A stretch of 64,000 nt of DNA from Nannochloropsis oceanica (lineage: Eukaryota; Sar; Eustigmatophyceae; Eustigmatales; Monodopsidaceae), in NCBI GenBank assembly GCA_004519485.1, contig CP038109.1, positions 768,001-832,000 of the forward strand, written 5' to 3'. Positions 31,368 through 37,984 of the stretch are shown piece by piece. A model generated the notes under the pieces. That model was not told the DNA's origin. It was given only the letters and a program-made list of their open reading frames with translations, and ran no database searches. The first letter of the stretch is position 1; the number at the start of each line of letters is the position of its first letter. Made by a program: the position numbers and the translations under genes.

Positions 31368-34300
31368 ATGGACTTTTTGGGCACTCTACTTTGCCAAATT
31401 TCCTGCGAAAAACTTCCCACAGACTACGACCGGGCGGCCAAAGTGGAGGAGCAAGAGTATGTACCTGGTGTTGTGCGCTCGGCTTCAACGTTGCCTCTTC
31501 TGAAGTACCAGGATGACAATGATGCCGATGCCGTAAATGTTAAATTTAATGATATCCCTTACAAGAATGAGGACCACCTCGGGCGCAAGCAAGCGACCAT
31601 GCTGGCGTTGTACGGCCTCTTGATGAAGCGGTACATGCGAGAGCCCGAGATCGAGCTGGCCATGATCATCGAGCGAGGTGCCTGGGTGGGTGTACCCTTA
31701 CATGGGGTCGCTGGGCTAGAAATCTCAATCATCGAGGCAGCTAAAAAAATTCATACCCTCCTGCAAGACCATGCGCCCCTGAATTCCTTTGTCTCCATCG
31801 ACGGTGATGACTTGAGCACCCGAGCCTTTGTGGTACGAGACAACATGCTTATTTCCCCGCCCAGAGAATGGCCACAATTATCGTTTGTGACGCCTCTTCT
31901 CTCTTGTGTAGCGGACATCTGCATGATCCTTGAGGAAGATCATTTCTTTACCCTTCTCTACAACAAACGTCTCTTCTCGAGCAACATGATGGAGGCCATG
32001 ATGCGCTGCTGGGAGACGCTGCTTACCCACGCTTGTCAAGACATGTCCGTGCGACAAGATCTGGTGCCTGTCGTAAGCCCTATGGATACAAAACGAATGG
32101 TGAGCGAGTGGAATCAGACAGAGATGCTGTTCCTACCACTCCGGCAAGGCATTCATGAGCTCTTTGAGGCGCGCGTTGACGAAGCCCCGAGCCGCCTGGC
32201 AGTGGTAGGCCCCGTTTCTGAAGAGGAGAGCGATATAGACCATTATCCCGCACGCGTGCAAGAAGTCACATATGGGGAGCTCGAACAACAAGCCAACCGT
32301 TTTGCCCATCATCTGCGACGGCAGGGCCTTCAAAACGAAGACATTGTGAGCATCTTCCTGGAGAGGTCCGTGGCCTTCTACGTGGTGATGCTCGGCGTGT
32401 TAAAAGCTGGTGCTGCCTACGTCTCGATTGACACCGACTATCCCGACGACCGCATTCAATTTATGCTAGAGGATTCAGGAGCCGTGGCGCTGGTGACAAT
32501 GCAAGCTCTTGCTCCCCGTGTCCAAGCCAAGGAGGAGATGTCACATCGACCCTTCCGTTTGGTCATATTGGATGACCCCTTACATTCGGCAGCTTTGGCT
32601 CAAGAACCTCCGACACGTCTTCTCCGTACAGTGATATCTCATGCCGTGGAAGCGCCGTGCTATGTCATCTACACCTCGGGCTCGACGGGCAGACCCAAGG
32701 GCGTGCAGATTAGCCATGCTAACGCACTCAACCTCATACAGGCTGAAGCGTACATTTACGGAATTCGACCCTCAGATCGGGTCCTGCAAGGTTTCTCTCC
32801 ATCCTTTGACGCCTCGGTGGAGGAGATGTGGATGGCTCTGCATAATGGTGCGGCACTGGTGGTGGGTACTAAGGAGCTGATGCGCTCGGGTCCCGATTTT
32901 CCTCGTTACTTGGCAGTGTTAGGTGTGACTTGTCTTTCAACTGTTCCGACACTTCTCGCTACCTTGGGAGCTCTGGAATGTTGCCAAAATGGTGACAATT
33001 GGGACACACAGCTGCTCCCCAATGTTCGGATCATTATCACGGGCGGGGAAGCATGCTCTAAGGAGCTTATGGCGCGCTGGACAACTTGCGGGCGCCGCTT
33101 CTTTAACACATACGGTCCTACCGAGGCCACCGTTGTTGCCACCTACAAGGAATATGGAACTACTGCTTCTTTTGAATCCTCTGTGCACCGCATCACCATC
33201 GGCAGACCTTTGCCCAACTACCAGATCTACGTGTTGGATGCGCATTTGAACCTGCTGCCTCCTGGGGCGCTTGGGGAGCTAGTCATTGGCGGTGTTTCCG
33301 TCTCCCGTACGGGGTACCTAAACCTGGTGGACAAGACTCAGGATGTATTTAAGCCTGATCCTTTCCGATCCGGCAAATCTTGCCGCTACCCGTTGTATCA
33401 GAGTGGCGATTTGGCGCGGATCTCGCTAGCCCCAGATAGCATGGGCGAAATTGAATACTACGGGCGGACGGATGCTCAAGTCAAGATCCGCGGATACCGT
33501 GTAGAGCCTAGTGAGATTGAGGCTGTGCTATGTGGGCTGCCAGGGATTCAATGTGCAGTGATAGACGTGCAACAGCAAGGTCCTGGGACGATGAAGCAGC
33601 TTGTAGCATTTGTAGTGCCTGCGGCTGGAGATGAGGGTACCTTGTTCCTGAACACAGCTGCGGTGATGCAAGCCATGCGTGAGAAACTGCCAGCATTCAT
33701 GATTCCGTCGCACATCGAGCCGGTGACTGCCTTTCCTATCTTGCCCTCTGGTAAGCTTGACCGACGCCGCTTCCCTCAAGTCTTACGTCCCGCCTCTCGC
33801 CGAGCGTTTGGTAAAAGCTTGACGAGGTCATTGTCGCGTGTCTTGGGGGCTAGTTGTGACGTTTCTGTGGCGAGGACCGGTGGTGACGTACTAGAGGAAG
33901 AGCATGATAAGCATCGGCGCGCGGTAACGTCAGCGTTTGAGCACGTGCTAGGTCTACCAGCCAAAACACTGGCAAGCCCAAAGGCAACTGACGCGGACTT
34001 CTTCGACCTCGGTGGCAACTCGCTACTAGTCTCCATGCTGGTCACCAAGCTCCGACATAAATATCCCGCCGTTGCAGCCCGAGATATCTACAACCATAGC
34101 GCAGTAGGATCACTTTCGGATGTCCTCAGGTCTTTGAGTCCCAAAACAGCCTCAGCAGCGACATCGACGACGGCACCACAATTTGTGACACTCAATAGCG
34201 AGGAAGAGAGACCCTACGCTACTAAGCTCACTGACGGTTGCAGTCAAGTGTCGTCTGCTTCATCTCCACCTTATGTTCCATGCATGGCCACCACCATTCT

Positions 34301-36536
34301 TGCCGATCTGGTCCAACTGGCTGCCATGTACATCGTTGCGGCCTATATGGGACTTAATGGCCTAGGTGTATATCTCCTGTACTTCAACTACAAGGACTTA
34401 CCCACGCTCAAGTTGCTGGCGATGCTCACGGGCGTCTCCGTTGCCCTCATCCCGCTGGCGTTTGTGGTGTTGGTGGCGACTAAGTGGCTCATGCTCGGGC
34501 GCGTTCAGGAGGGCGACCATCCTCTATGGCAATCATACCACCTGCGCTTTTGGTTCGTGCAGTCCTTGGACAGTGTATTTCGGCTCTTTTATATGGCGTC
34601 ACTAAAGGGCACGCCTGTGGTGGCATGGTATCACTGGGCCTTAGGCTCTCGCATGGGTCGAGGCATCTATCTACAGGGCAGTCTGGAGGGATACGATCTG
34701 GTTACAATTGGGGACGGCTGCACACTCAACTGTCAAGCCAATGTGAGCGCCGTAAGCATAGAAGGGAACTACCTGAAGCTGCGCAAGGTAATTCTGGGTC
34801 GAGGCGTGACAGTGGGCGTCCGTGCCATGGTCCAGTCGGAAGTTTGCATGGACGACTACTGCAAGATCGAAGCCTTGTCTCTCGTGCCTTCGGCGACCCG
34901 CGTGCCGACTCGTCAGATTTGGGCAGGGGCGCCAATCGTTTTTGTGGGCTTTAATGAAGACATCGGCTCAGCACCAACGGGCACCAGTGGTATCATTGGA
35001 ATACTACAAATTCTGTGGGGCGTGTTTGAAAAGGTCCTGGAAGCCAGCTTTCTGATGCCCTTCCTCTACATGCTTCGTGCGGTGCCGGTGCCATCCGTAA
35101 CAGAGGATGATCCTGTGGCTACCCGCTGGCACGCGGCAGGTACGACACTGCTTCATGTCACTTGGCTCTCGATGGTATTACAGATCGGCATTTTTTTCGC
35201 CAGGACATGTCTTGTGGCAGTACTCAAGCGCCTCCTCCTGCTCGGCGGTCTGCAGGAGGAGACCACCTACCCCCTGAGGTCGTGGACATTCTTTCGACAT
35301 TGGGCAGTAGATAATCTGATGGATTCCCTGGCCGTGTACACCAAACAGCTTCGGGGAACTCTATATTTACCGCTGTGGTACCAGCTGATGGGCGCACATA
35401 TTGGGCACTATGCAGAAATTTCGGCATTTGAAAACGTTTGTGCTGAGCGTCTAACACTTGGGGACCAAGTTTTTGTGGCAGACGACGTGATGCTGGGTAT
35501 GCCGCATGTAGATAGTGGGATAGTGACGCAACAACCAGTATCAATCGGAGATCGGACCTTTGTGGGCAACAATTCAGTCGTGGAAGGCGGCACGCATTTA
35601 CCCCAAGATGTGCTTGTCGGAGTCCTGACACTGCCACCCTCACAGAGGGCAACAACTGCCCCTGGGGAGACTTTGCTTGGCTGCCCACCCTTTCGGGTAC
35701 AAAAGCGGGCTGAACTTTCGTATCATGCTATTAACACGTATACCCCACCAAGTTGGATGGTATTTGTACGCTATGTAGTGGAAGGCGTGGGGTTCCTCCT
35801 ATTACAGATCTCGTTGGCGTCATGCTTTGCTCTGCTGTACGTGTCCATGACTTGGTGCTACAACGGGAACAACAGCAGTGCCAGCCTCGTGACATACTTG
35901 CTGACGCTGCCTTTGCTTGTTATTGGGGAAGGCATAGTGGCGGCCTTCCTTACCCTGTTTTGGAAGTGGGTTGTCATAGGCCGGTACCGTGCGGGGTCGT
36001 ACCCACTGTACGGAATATATGTGTGGCGAACTGAATTTGTAGAGCGTATAGAAGAGAACCTACTGCACACCCACACTTATCCATTAATTAGCGGAACAGT
36101 ATGGATGCAACTTGTGAATCAGGCCATGGGCGTGCGGATGGGGTGTCGAGCCTATCTAGAATTTCCTTACTTTTGCGAACCTGACCTTTGCACCGTGGGT
36201 GATTATTGCAACATGGAACGCACGGCTTCCTTACAAGCGCATTTGTTTCAGGATCGCGTGCGAACAACGGGTCCCGTCAAAGTGGGCAACTTTTGCAGCT
36301 TGGGTTCGGACTCGGTGGTCCTGTTGGGTGCAGTACTGGGGGACCACTGTGCCTTGAGCTCCATGTCGTTAGTCCTGCGGTCCGAGGAGTTGCCTTCACA
36401 TACGCAATGGCACGGCTTGCCCGCCGTCAAATTGCTGCCAGGGGTTCGGGACGCGCGGAAATACAATGATGAGGAAGTGCAGGAGGCCGGAGCAGTTGCG
36501 GTGGAAGCGGCGGGTAGAGTAAGAGAGGGCAAGTAA
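31368..36536 (+). CDS. Pls/PosA-type NRPS: lysine-type adenylation domain, carrier, six membrane helices, three tandem C-terminal domains
   Basis: One intronless frame of 1722 residues. Residues 1-250 look like the end of a condensation-type domain, with the linker SEWNQTEMLFLP, and lack HHxxxDG. The adenylation domain (250-800) has every core motif: LKAGAAYVSID, YTSGSTGRPKG, NTYGPTEATV, YQSGDLARI, GRTDAQVKIRGYRVEPSEIE and LPSGKLDRR. Its pocket residues read D-A-E-S-I-G-T-V-V-K, very close to the lysine code D-A-E-S-I-G-S-V-A-K that I recall for a bacitracin module. A carrier domain follows with FFDLGGNSLL (Ser near 882). After it, three membrane hairpins alternate with three related soluble domains, each with GTP/GTL or GTV...W then GARIG-like and IGD-like motifs. 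This is the layout of the epsilon-poly-L-lysine synthetase Pls. The product is inferred, not shown. Confidence 0.9.
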   Translation: MDFLGTLLCQISCEKLPTDYDRAAKVEEQEYVPGVVRSASTLPLLKYQDDNDADAVNVKFNDIPYKNEDHLGRKQATMLALYGLLMKRYMREPEIELAMIIERGAWVGVPLHGVAGLEISIIEAAKKIHTLLQDHAPLNSFVSIDGDDLSTRAFVVRDNMLISPPREWPQLSFVTPLLSCVADICMILEEDHFFTLLYNKRLFSSNMMEAMMRCWETLLTHACQDMSVRQDLVPVVSPMDTKRMVSEWNQTEMLFLPLRQGIHELFEARVDEAPSRLAVVGPVSEEESDIDHYPARVQEVTYGELEQQANRFAHHLRRQGLQNEDIVSIFLERSVAFYVVMLGVLKAGAAYVSIDTDYPDDRIQFMLEDSGAVALVTMQALAPRVQAKEEMSHRPFRLVILDDPLHSAALAQEPPTRLLRTVISHAVEAPCYVIYTSGSTGRPKGVQISHANALNLIQAEAYIYGIRPSDRVLQGFSPSFDASVEEMWMALHNGAALVVGTKELMRSGPDFPRYLAVLGVTCLSTVPTLLATLGALECCQNGDNWDTQLLPNVRIIITGGEACSKELMARWTTCGRRFFNTYGPTEATVVATYKEYGTTASFESSVHRITIGRPLPNYQIYVLDAHLNLLPPGALGELVIGGVSVSRTGYLNLVDKTQDVFKPDPFRSGKSCRYPLYQSGDLARISLAPDSMGEIEYYGRTDAQVKIRGYRVEPSEIEAVLCGLPGIQCAVIDVQQQGPGTMKQLVAFVVPAAGDEGTLFLNTAAVMQAMREKLPAFMIPSHIEPVTAFPILPSGKLDRRRFPQVLRPASRRAFGKSLTRSLSRVLGASCDVSVARTGGDVLEEEHDKHRRAVTSAFEHVLGLPAKTLASPKATDADFFDLGGNSLLVSMLVTKLRHKYPAVAARDIYNHSAVGSLSDVLRSLSPKTASAATSTTAPQFVTLNSEEERPYATKLTDGCSQVSSASSPPYVPCMATTILADLVQLAAMYIVAAYMGLNGLGVYLLYFNYKDLPTLKLLAMLTGVSVALIPLAFVVLVATKWLMLGRVQEGDHPLWQSYHLRFWFVQSLDSVFRLFYMASLKGTPVVAWYHWALGSRMGRGIYLQGSLEGYDLVTIGDGCTLNCQANVSAVSIEGNYLKLRKVILGRGVTVGVRAMVQSEVCMDDYCKIEALSLVPSATRVPTRQIWAGAPIVFVGFNEDIGSAPTGTSGIIGILQILWGVFEKVLEASFLMPFLYMLRAVPVPSVTEDDPVATRWHAAGTTLLHVTWLSMVLQIGIFFARTCLVAVLKRLLLLGGLQEETTYPLRSWTFFRHWAVDNLMDSLAVYTKQLRGTLYLPLWYQLMGAHIGHYAEISAFENVCAERLTLGDQVFVADDVMLGMPHVDSGIVTQQPVSIGDRTFVGNNSVVEGGTHLPQDVLVGVLTLPPSQRATTAPGETLLGCPPFRVQKRAELSYHAINTYTPPSWMVFVRYVVEGVGFLLLQISLASCFALLYVSMTWCYNGNNSSASLVTYLLTLPLLVIGEGIVAAFLTLFWKWVVIGRYRAGSYPLYGIYVWRTEFVERIEENLLHTHTYPLISGTVWMQLVNQAMGVRMGCRAYLEFPYFCEPDLCTVGDYCNMERTASLQAHLFQDRVRTTGPVKVGNFCSLGSDSVVLLGAVLGDHCALSSMSLVLRSEELPSHTQWHGLPAVKLLPGVRDARKYNDEEVQEAGAVAVEAAGRVREGK

Positions 36537-36850: not shown

Positions 36851-37984
36851 TTACACTCTTCCGTGATCTGCTTTCCCACCTTGTTGCTCTGTTGTTGCAG
36901 CAGCTGCCGGCTTGCATTCCGTCACTCTGCCAAAGCGCCTTCTCCTCCGTCCATAGCTTTCCAAGGCCGCAAGCAAATTTTCTTGCCTAAAATCGGGCCA
37001 CAAGGCCTCTGAAACAAAGAATTCGGAGTATGCGCATTCAAAAAGCATAAAATTGGACCATCGCTGCTCTCCAGATGTGCGGACAACTAGGTCTGGAGGA
37101 CGAAGGATTCCCTTTTGATGAGTTGATAGTCGTGACTCAAACAAGGTCTCATCAATCTCTTCCGGGTGGACCTCGCCCGTAGCCACTTGTTTAGCCAAGG
37201 CGCGACATGCCTGGACAATGTCATCGCGTCCACCGTAGCTTAACGCCAAGCACACCGTCATTCCATCCTCCTGTGTGTAGCCCGCAGTCTCTGCCTCGGC
37301 CCGTGTTACCAGCGCCTGAAGGCTTAGGGGGAGTCGGTGCATTTGCCCAATCACGACAAGGCGGATGCGGTTCTTGTGAGCATACTCCAGGTTAGCTCGG
37401 AGAGAATTCTCAATGCAGCCCAGGATTATGATGATCTCGGCTTGGGGCCGGCTCCAATTTTCCGTGCTGAGGCAATAGAGGGTCACTGTGCGAATGCCCA
37501 AGGCCTGCGATAATATCCATTGGAGTGGTTGGAACGTTGAGGATTAGATTTCTATATTGTGACGCAAATTCGTGTAACATGCACCCTCATCCTCTCGTCG
37601 TTTCTTACACGAAACTCTCCCAACCCTCTCTCCAGATTCCTTCCTCACCTGGCACGTCTTCAGGACGTCGAACGCCCTTTGGGTCCCCTCCATGTGCCCC
37701 GCGCCACGCGGCAACCCCCGCTGCTGCGCCCAACGTCCATTACCGTCTAATACCAAGGCTAAATGTTCAGGCACGACAACACTAGGTGGCAAGGCCGTGC
37801 GAGCGGCTTTGAGATGGCGATGAAGATGGAGGTTGCGATGCAGGAACCTTCTACTGTATGGTAGAGGCTGCAGAAATTGAAAGGCATCCACAGACAGGAC
37901 AAAGTACAGGAAGATGAGGGAAATTACTACGGAGGAGGACGGATGCAGCGCTGGTGATGGTCTTGATTTTAGTCGCGGCGGCAT
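36851..37984 (-). CDS. cis-prenyltransferase (undecaprenyl/dehydrodolichyl diphosphate synthase family)
   Basis: Two exons: 37984-37649 and 37504-36851; 329 residues. Conserved regions are intact: LVLDGNGRWAQQRGLPRGAG with the catalytic Asp of DGNGRWA, then TLYCLSTENWSRP, LSYGGRDDIVQA and RTSGEQRWSNFMLFECAYSE with the RxSGE substrate site. The enzyme condenses isopentenyl diphosphate in cis to make polyprenyl diphosphates. The N-terminus has a hydrophobic segment (VVISLIFLYFVLSVDA) cut before FQFLQP, so a plastid location is likely, rather than the ER-bound dolichol enzyme. The chain length made cannot be read from the sequence. The C-terminal tail is Ala/Gln-rich and divergent. Confidence 0.92.

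Follow-up and report, generated by a model that had tools for sequence, protein, structure and literature searches.

A long reading frame in the genome of Nannochloropsis oceanica raised the question of whether an alga encodes its own synthetase for a lysine homopolymer. The window analysed here is a 64,000-nucleotide stretch of that genome, and a first-pass annotation of its letters had read the frame as a single-module NRPS of the Pls type, with a lysine-like adenylation code, in an algal host.

Domain layout and origin of the gene

We found a complete coding frame of 1722 amino acids at window positions 31368..36536 (+) with no stop inside and no intron required; all features of the protein given below lie on the same strand (+). 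Pfam and motif reading placed an adenylation domain at residues 266-800 (32163..33767), comprising an AMP-binding match (residues 266-647, E 1.4e-82) and an AMP-binding_C match (residues 716-796), with the motifs YTSGSTGRPKG, NTYGPTEAT, YQSGDLAR and LPSGKLDRR all present. It is followed by a carrier (T) domain at residues 852-919 (33921..34124), identified by a PP-binding match and by Ser885 in an LGGNSL motif, and this order of adenylation and carrier domains is that of the Pls/PosA cationic homopoly(amino acid) synthetases. The Pfam scan called neither a condensation nor a thioesterase domain in the protein. A Pls/PosA terminal (polymerisation) module with repeats C1-C3 occupies residues 982-1686 (34311..36425), as judged from TIGR02353, Pfam and alignment. 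The TIGR02353 profile (NCBIfam 'Pls/PosA family NRPS') matched this module end to end (profile positions 2-695 of 695, E 9.7e-124) with 414.2 bits, slightly below the curated cut-off of 423.1, and Pfam added two Hexapep stretches, so the Pls layout proposed by the annotation was borne out. In the Pls/PosA family this part is described as six membrane helices paired into three hairpins, together with three left-handed beta-helix domains. Hydropathy alone placed membrane hairpin 1 at residues 972-1046 (34281..34505) and hairpin 3 at residues 1465-1537 (35760..35978), each with both helices, and a single region for hairpin 2, where just residues 1260-1293 (35145..35246) passed the threshold; the scan is unspecific, with four stretches of the soluble part also above threshold. 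The profile match covers all three repeats.

Six proteins (P0001-P0006), presumably from eustigmatophytes, matched the algal protein over its full length, with 67-99% identity in the terminal module, which places the observation far beyond chance. The presence of an adenylation-carrier-Pls/PosA-module gene in an alga is thus confirmed as a real observation. The genome spans 29.3 Mb in 32 contigs, and photosystem II reaction-centre genes on a plastid-type contig (C32) indicate that the host is photosynthetic, in agreement with the annotation. The gene itself lies on a 1.1-Mb contig among ordinary eukaryotic neighbours; ten neighbouring frames were scanned, and the matches include cis-prenyltransferase, C2-domain, thioredoxin/PUB and ArfGAP genes. 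The cis-prenyltransferase gene at window positions 36854-37984 (-) consists of two frames and is apparently split by an intron.

The sequence could also have come from a bacterial contaminant or from a very recent bacterial transfer, and the frame without an intron and the at least 581 stretches of prokaryote genome contigs that encode relatives fit such an origin. Against it, the best 80 of these loci, from many bacterial phyla and two archaea, reach 26-35% identity only. Furthermore, phylogenetic analysis grouped the algal gene at a support of 100 with its close relatives and with P0008, a 1729-aa protein that shares the pocket and likewise has a long N-terminus, all on a long stem. Contamination or recent transfer was rejected on the basis of this low identity, the tree, the plastid-type contig and the eukaryotic neighbours, and we give this origin a negligible probability. 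Trees were built with FastTree (124 rows) and IQ-TREE (54 rows, with four of the seven copies), omitting short rows and rows with a gapped pocket. The algal clade fell into the half of the FastTree tree that holds the actinobacterial Pls enzymes and near Bacteroidota in the IQ-TREE tree; because its position among prokaryotes is unstable between the two, no donor is named. The sole fungal relative placed in a tree, P0077 of Aureobasidium, has an ornithine-like pocket and grouped elsewhere.

A lysine-type substrate pocket

The pocket-forming positions were taken from GrsA. Alignment gave D481, A482, E485, S524, I557, G559, T581, V589, V590 and K796, that is DAESIGTVVK, in agreement at all ten positions with the code that the annotation had derived by hand. 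The first two residues lie at 32808..32813 (alignment including 7WEW), Glu485, the expected contact of the side-chain amine, at 32820..32822 (alignment and comparison with PosA), and Ser524 at 32937..32939; Ile557 and Gly559 fall within 33036..33044, Thr581, Val589 and Val590 within 33108..33137, and Lys796 of the A10 motif at 33753..33755, all by alignment. The pocket is identical at ten of ten positions to that of 7WEW, the solved adenylation domain of an epsilon-poly-L-lysine synthetase; the letters of 7WEW were read where P0036 aligns to it, the first aligned segment supplying nine of them and the next one the A10 lysine. Among 64 rows (the algal protein and 63 protein relatives), DAESIGTVVK occurred in 21, 20 of them relatives, and DAESIGTVIK in 7; the pocket was partly or wholly missing from five rows and doubtful in two. 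All six close relatives read DAESIGTV[V/I]K, five of them differing by V to I only, a change that occurs in further members of the family. In the best 80 of the at least 581 prokaryote loci, 12 carried DAESIGTVVK and 18 DAESIGTVIK, while 13 were incomplete at the pocket.

The first module of bacitracin synthetase 2, a lysine module, is an ordinary assembly-line NRPS module. Its pocket is described as conserved with those of bacterial Pls and fungal Epls in the available part of PMC7179176; the annotation had set the algal code close to that of a bacitracin lysine module. In PosA of Acinetobacter baumannii, a delta-poly-L-ornithine synthetase from the same family and with a matching layout, the two amines are held by an Asp and a Glu; Glu221 is assigned to the amine of the side chain, and chain length is attributed to Met218 (PMC10522769, accessible portion). 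Pls and the algal protein have Glu and a small Ala (Glu485 and Ala482) at these two positions. The adenylation domain very likely selects and activates L-lysine.

We also weighed a synthetase that would polymerise a different diamino acid (ornithine, beta-lysine, diaminobutyrate or diaminopropionate), as the substrate varies within the family according to the same excerpt of PMC10522769. PosA has Met, His and Asn where the algal pocket has Ala, Ser and Ile; the code DMEHNGTVSK, consistent with the PosA residues given in that paper, and rows like it sit in separate branches of the tree. The code for epsilon-poly-beta-lysine is given in that part of the paper as DGESISVVNK. The algal code differs from both and equals that of the solved Pls domain, by which an ornithine- or beta-lysine-type pocket was ruled out, and a different diamino acid is improbable. 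In addition, P0030, P0035, P0044, P0047, P0050, P0051 and P0052 formed a supported clade with the pocket DSECYGGVTK, which PMC10522769, in the part available, reports for a Bdellovibrionales enzyme with modest activity towards arginine.

We then compared the adenylation domain as a whole with 30 adenylation loci from five bacterial genomes. One of these, L105 (315 bits), also bears a Pls terminal module and was set apart; the other 29, ordinary NRPS domains, scored 151-290 bits with a median of 255. The best Pls-family match was P0073 (432 bits, 45%, code DAESIGTVIK), and 102 of 188 Pls-family rows, partial rows included and the six close relatives excluded, exceeded 290 bits. The annotation had stated that its reading would fall if a family other than Pls matched better. 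For the family at large no such match was found, the best Pls-family score standing well above the best ordinary one, but the Streptomyces Pls/PosA rows P0036 (192 bits) and L096 (219 bits) fell below the ordinary median, and in a PDB search 7WEW (229 bits) ranked behind several ordinary chains, among them 5u89 (281), 4d4g (277) and tyrocidine synthase 1 (263). On these scores the domain is nearest to non-actinobacterial lysine-code members of the Pls family, with no particular affinity to the enzymes of actinobacteria. The control therefore cuts both ways, and our confidence in lysine activation and in polymer synthesis was left unchanged by it.

The terminal module and the product

To describe the terminal module, near-invariant positions were defined as the 29 at which at least 93% of 53 outside relatives agree; these relatives are the 63 proteins minus four dropped and minus the six close ones, which were treated separately. 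The algal protein keeps 26 of the 29, compared with 233 of 683 positions overall, and the residues kept include Gln983, Arg1060, Asp1372 (35481..35483), Asn1401, His1625 in the QAHLFQDR motif of C3 (36240..36242) and Asp1629; by alignment Asp1372 and His1625 are identical in all 53 outside relatives. Three arginines, each conserved in 51 of the 53, are replaced (1090 by W, 1339 by Q and 1585 by Q), and the conserved arginine of C3 is gone from all seven copies (the algal protein and P0001-P0006). Mutational data on the C1-C3 domains were reportedly obtained by Kito in 2013.

We found Pls-like terminal modules in three other frames of the genome. A 16178-aa frame (G000:C2:533877-582410 (-), L009-L014) encodes a FAAL-ACP-multimodular type I PKS that ends in a Pls/PosA-like module; the domain scan covered parts of it, and antisense frames every 9339 bases along its length suggest repeated modules. 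A 3882-aa protein (G000:C12:706974-718619 (-), L015-L016), about 80-90 kb from the gene studied here, has the order FAAL-ACP-KS-AT-KR-ACP followed by the Pls-like module. It also contains a degenerate condensation-like stretch, with PRMLLDRW by eye at the place of HHxxxDG, and a condensation match under the Pfam cut-off (E 0.0024). The third, of 2382 aa (G000:C3:138469-145614 (+), L018), reads FAAL-ACP-Pls-like module-thioester reductase and has six close relatives (P0065-P0070), the next matches being Pls/PosA-type proteins; it may act in lipid or wall-polymer synthesis. These FAAL/PKS-type proteins are unlikely to make polylysine. Since three of them carry the module, its uses are wider and a terminal module alone is no proof of homopolymer synthesis, and they are our main reason for caution over that function.

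The algal enzyme could accordingly activate lysine and have its terminal module hand a single lysine, or a few, to a different acceptor, such as a lipid, a polyamine, a diol or a wall component. This is compatible with the FAAL-PKS and FAAL-ACP-reductase modules, which presumably act on acyl chains, with the loss of the C3 arginine from all seven copies, and with an N-terminal condensation-like lobe that could present a different acceptor. However, the three FAAL/PKS-linked modules keep just 15, 18 and 16 of the 29 near-invariant positions against 26 in the algal protein, and the equivalent of His1625, present in the latter, is absent from two of them. We therefore regard transfer to another acceptor as unlikely, albeit the foremost alternative, and probably the protein is a membrane-bound epsilon-poly-L-lysine synthetase, its expression being presumed from the sequence. 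The adenylation domain would pick L-lysine and form lysyl-AMP, and the lysine would be loaded onto the phosphopantetheine attached to Ser885. The C1-C2-C3 module, anchored in the membrane, would then link the lysine on the carrier, through its alpha-carboxyl, to the epsilon-amine of either a free lysine or the growing chain, giving epsilon-poly- or oligo-L-lysine with neither a condensation nor a thioesterase domain. Such iterative isopeptide polymerisation is the likely activity of the enzyme. The two ACPS-type phosphopantetheinyl-transferase matches in the genome could represent the proteins that prime the carrier domain. As for the product, a function in defence or as a polycation of the wall would be our guess. 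The annotation had read the sequence correctly, and most likely the function as well.

Bacterial Pls has the same adenylation-carrier-three-repeat membrane module. Compared with Streptomyces P0036, identity is about 27% in the C1-C3 region of the algal protein (175 of 653 aligned positions) and 32% in its adenylation domain; the alga differs from Pls in an extra N-terminal lobe of about 240 residues and in the missing C3 arginine. Among eukaryotes, Epls of the fungus Epichloe festucae shares this layout, judged by its published description, and its overexpression raised epsilon-polylysine production (PMC7179176, available part). Epsilon-polylysine is a commercial antimicrobial, and the synthetases described for it come from actinobacteria and certain ascomycetes (PMC8506220 and PMC7179176, in the portions available). 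Homologues of the Pls family are named in fungi, archaea, cyanobacteria, Metazoa, 'Alveota' and Amoebozoa, with eustigmatophytes unnamed in the accessible part of PMC10522769. A survey of algae called NRPSs by their condensation domains and, in its available part, lists PKSs with no NRPS counts in the Nannochloropsis rows (PMC4661987); as described there, this rule would miss the present gene. Among the papers listed in literature searches, none describes a polylysine synthetase from Nannochloropsis or another alga in its title or at the start of its abstract. The accessible sections of PMC10794256, PMC11211512, PMC7763478, PMC6562964, PMC8910654 and PMC10935295 likewise do not mention one; in these sections polylysine is ascribed to Streptomyces (PMC8910654, PMC10935295) or used for slide coating (PMC11211512). 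If the alga makes epsilon-polylysine, it would represent a new producer group, the polymer would be a candidate polycation for defence or for the wall, and production could be driven by light. Furthermore, the lysine-enzyme module and the FAAL/PKS-linked modules offer a natural comparison within one genome that could show the poorly understood role of C1-C3.

The N-terminal extension

What the first-pass annotation had not described, beside the three other terminal modules, is an extended N-terminus that looks like half a condensation domain, and the protein is most likely a known kind of enzyme in a new group of organisms plus this unexplained lobe. Residues 61-240 (31548..32087) show a weak but consistent likeness to the C-terminal lobe of an NRPS condensation domain. 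Motif reading found no HHxxxDG in the extension. No full condensation domain was found upstream of the adenylation domain. At the level of the genome, a six-frame search with PF00668 gave no match at E 0.001; the adenylation domain of the protein was the only one over the TIGR01733 cut-off, 12 of 24 genome candidates having been scored.

Residues 1-262 are kept in P0001-P0006 with 46-98% identity, and a search with the N-terminus found these six and, at E 0.47, the condensation-containing NRPS P0064; it missed the N-terminus of P0008, whose likeness rests on alignment. The bacterial members P0009, P0010 and P0036 have no counterpart of the extension in the alignment. A profile of the seven N-termini matched the end of the McyB condensation domain in the PDB (E 4.8e-7), with most of the score coming from a stretch that includes the condensation-adenylation linker. 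Weaker condensation matches in the same search (E 0.12-0.51) overlapped in score with unrelated SRP54 chains (0.47-0.88). When the linker-free N-terminus was compared by hhalign with two condensation domains of one protein, the score was 29.7 (probability 13%, 30 columns) versus 10-17 for seven controls, which is suggestive only. The structural model of the N-terminus was of low confidence (mean pLDDT 55, pTM 0.59), and the order of its helices and strands presumably fits the C-terminal lobe of a condensation domain. Taken together, the extension is quite probably half a condensation domain.

A lobe that looks like a remnant would also suit a decayed or inactive NRPS relic. The adenylation and carrier motifs are intact, though, and conservation among the close relatives is strong and, of the domains, highest in C3, so that decay seems highly improbable. 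Returning to an active lysine polymerase, one tentative and rather doubtful scheme is that the algal lineage has an ancient membrane-bound epsilon-polylysine synthetase of its own, with the condensation half as a new acceptor or initiation part, and has recruited Pls-type modules for off-loading or acyl transfer in FAAL-polyketide megasynthases; one family of modules would then serve a lysine polymer on the one hand and lipid or polyketide products on the other. P0129 of another stramenopile alga, Aureococcus anophagefferens, has by eye a condensation-half-like N-terminus together with a Pls-like terminal module. Its adenylation domain reads FFGVSEWE and seems to lack the pocket Asp that binds the alpha-amine; P0129 represents a related architecture, probably with a different substrate.
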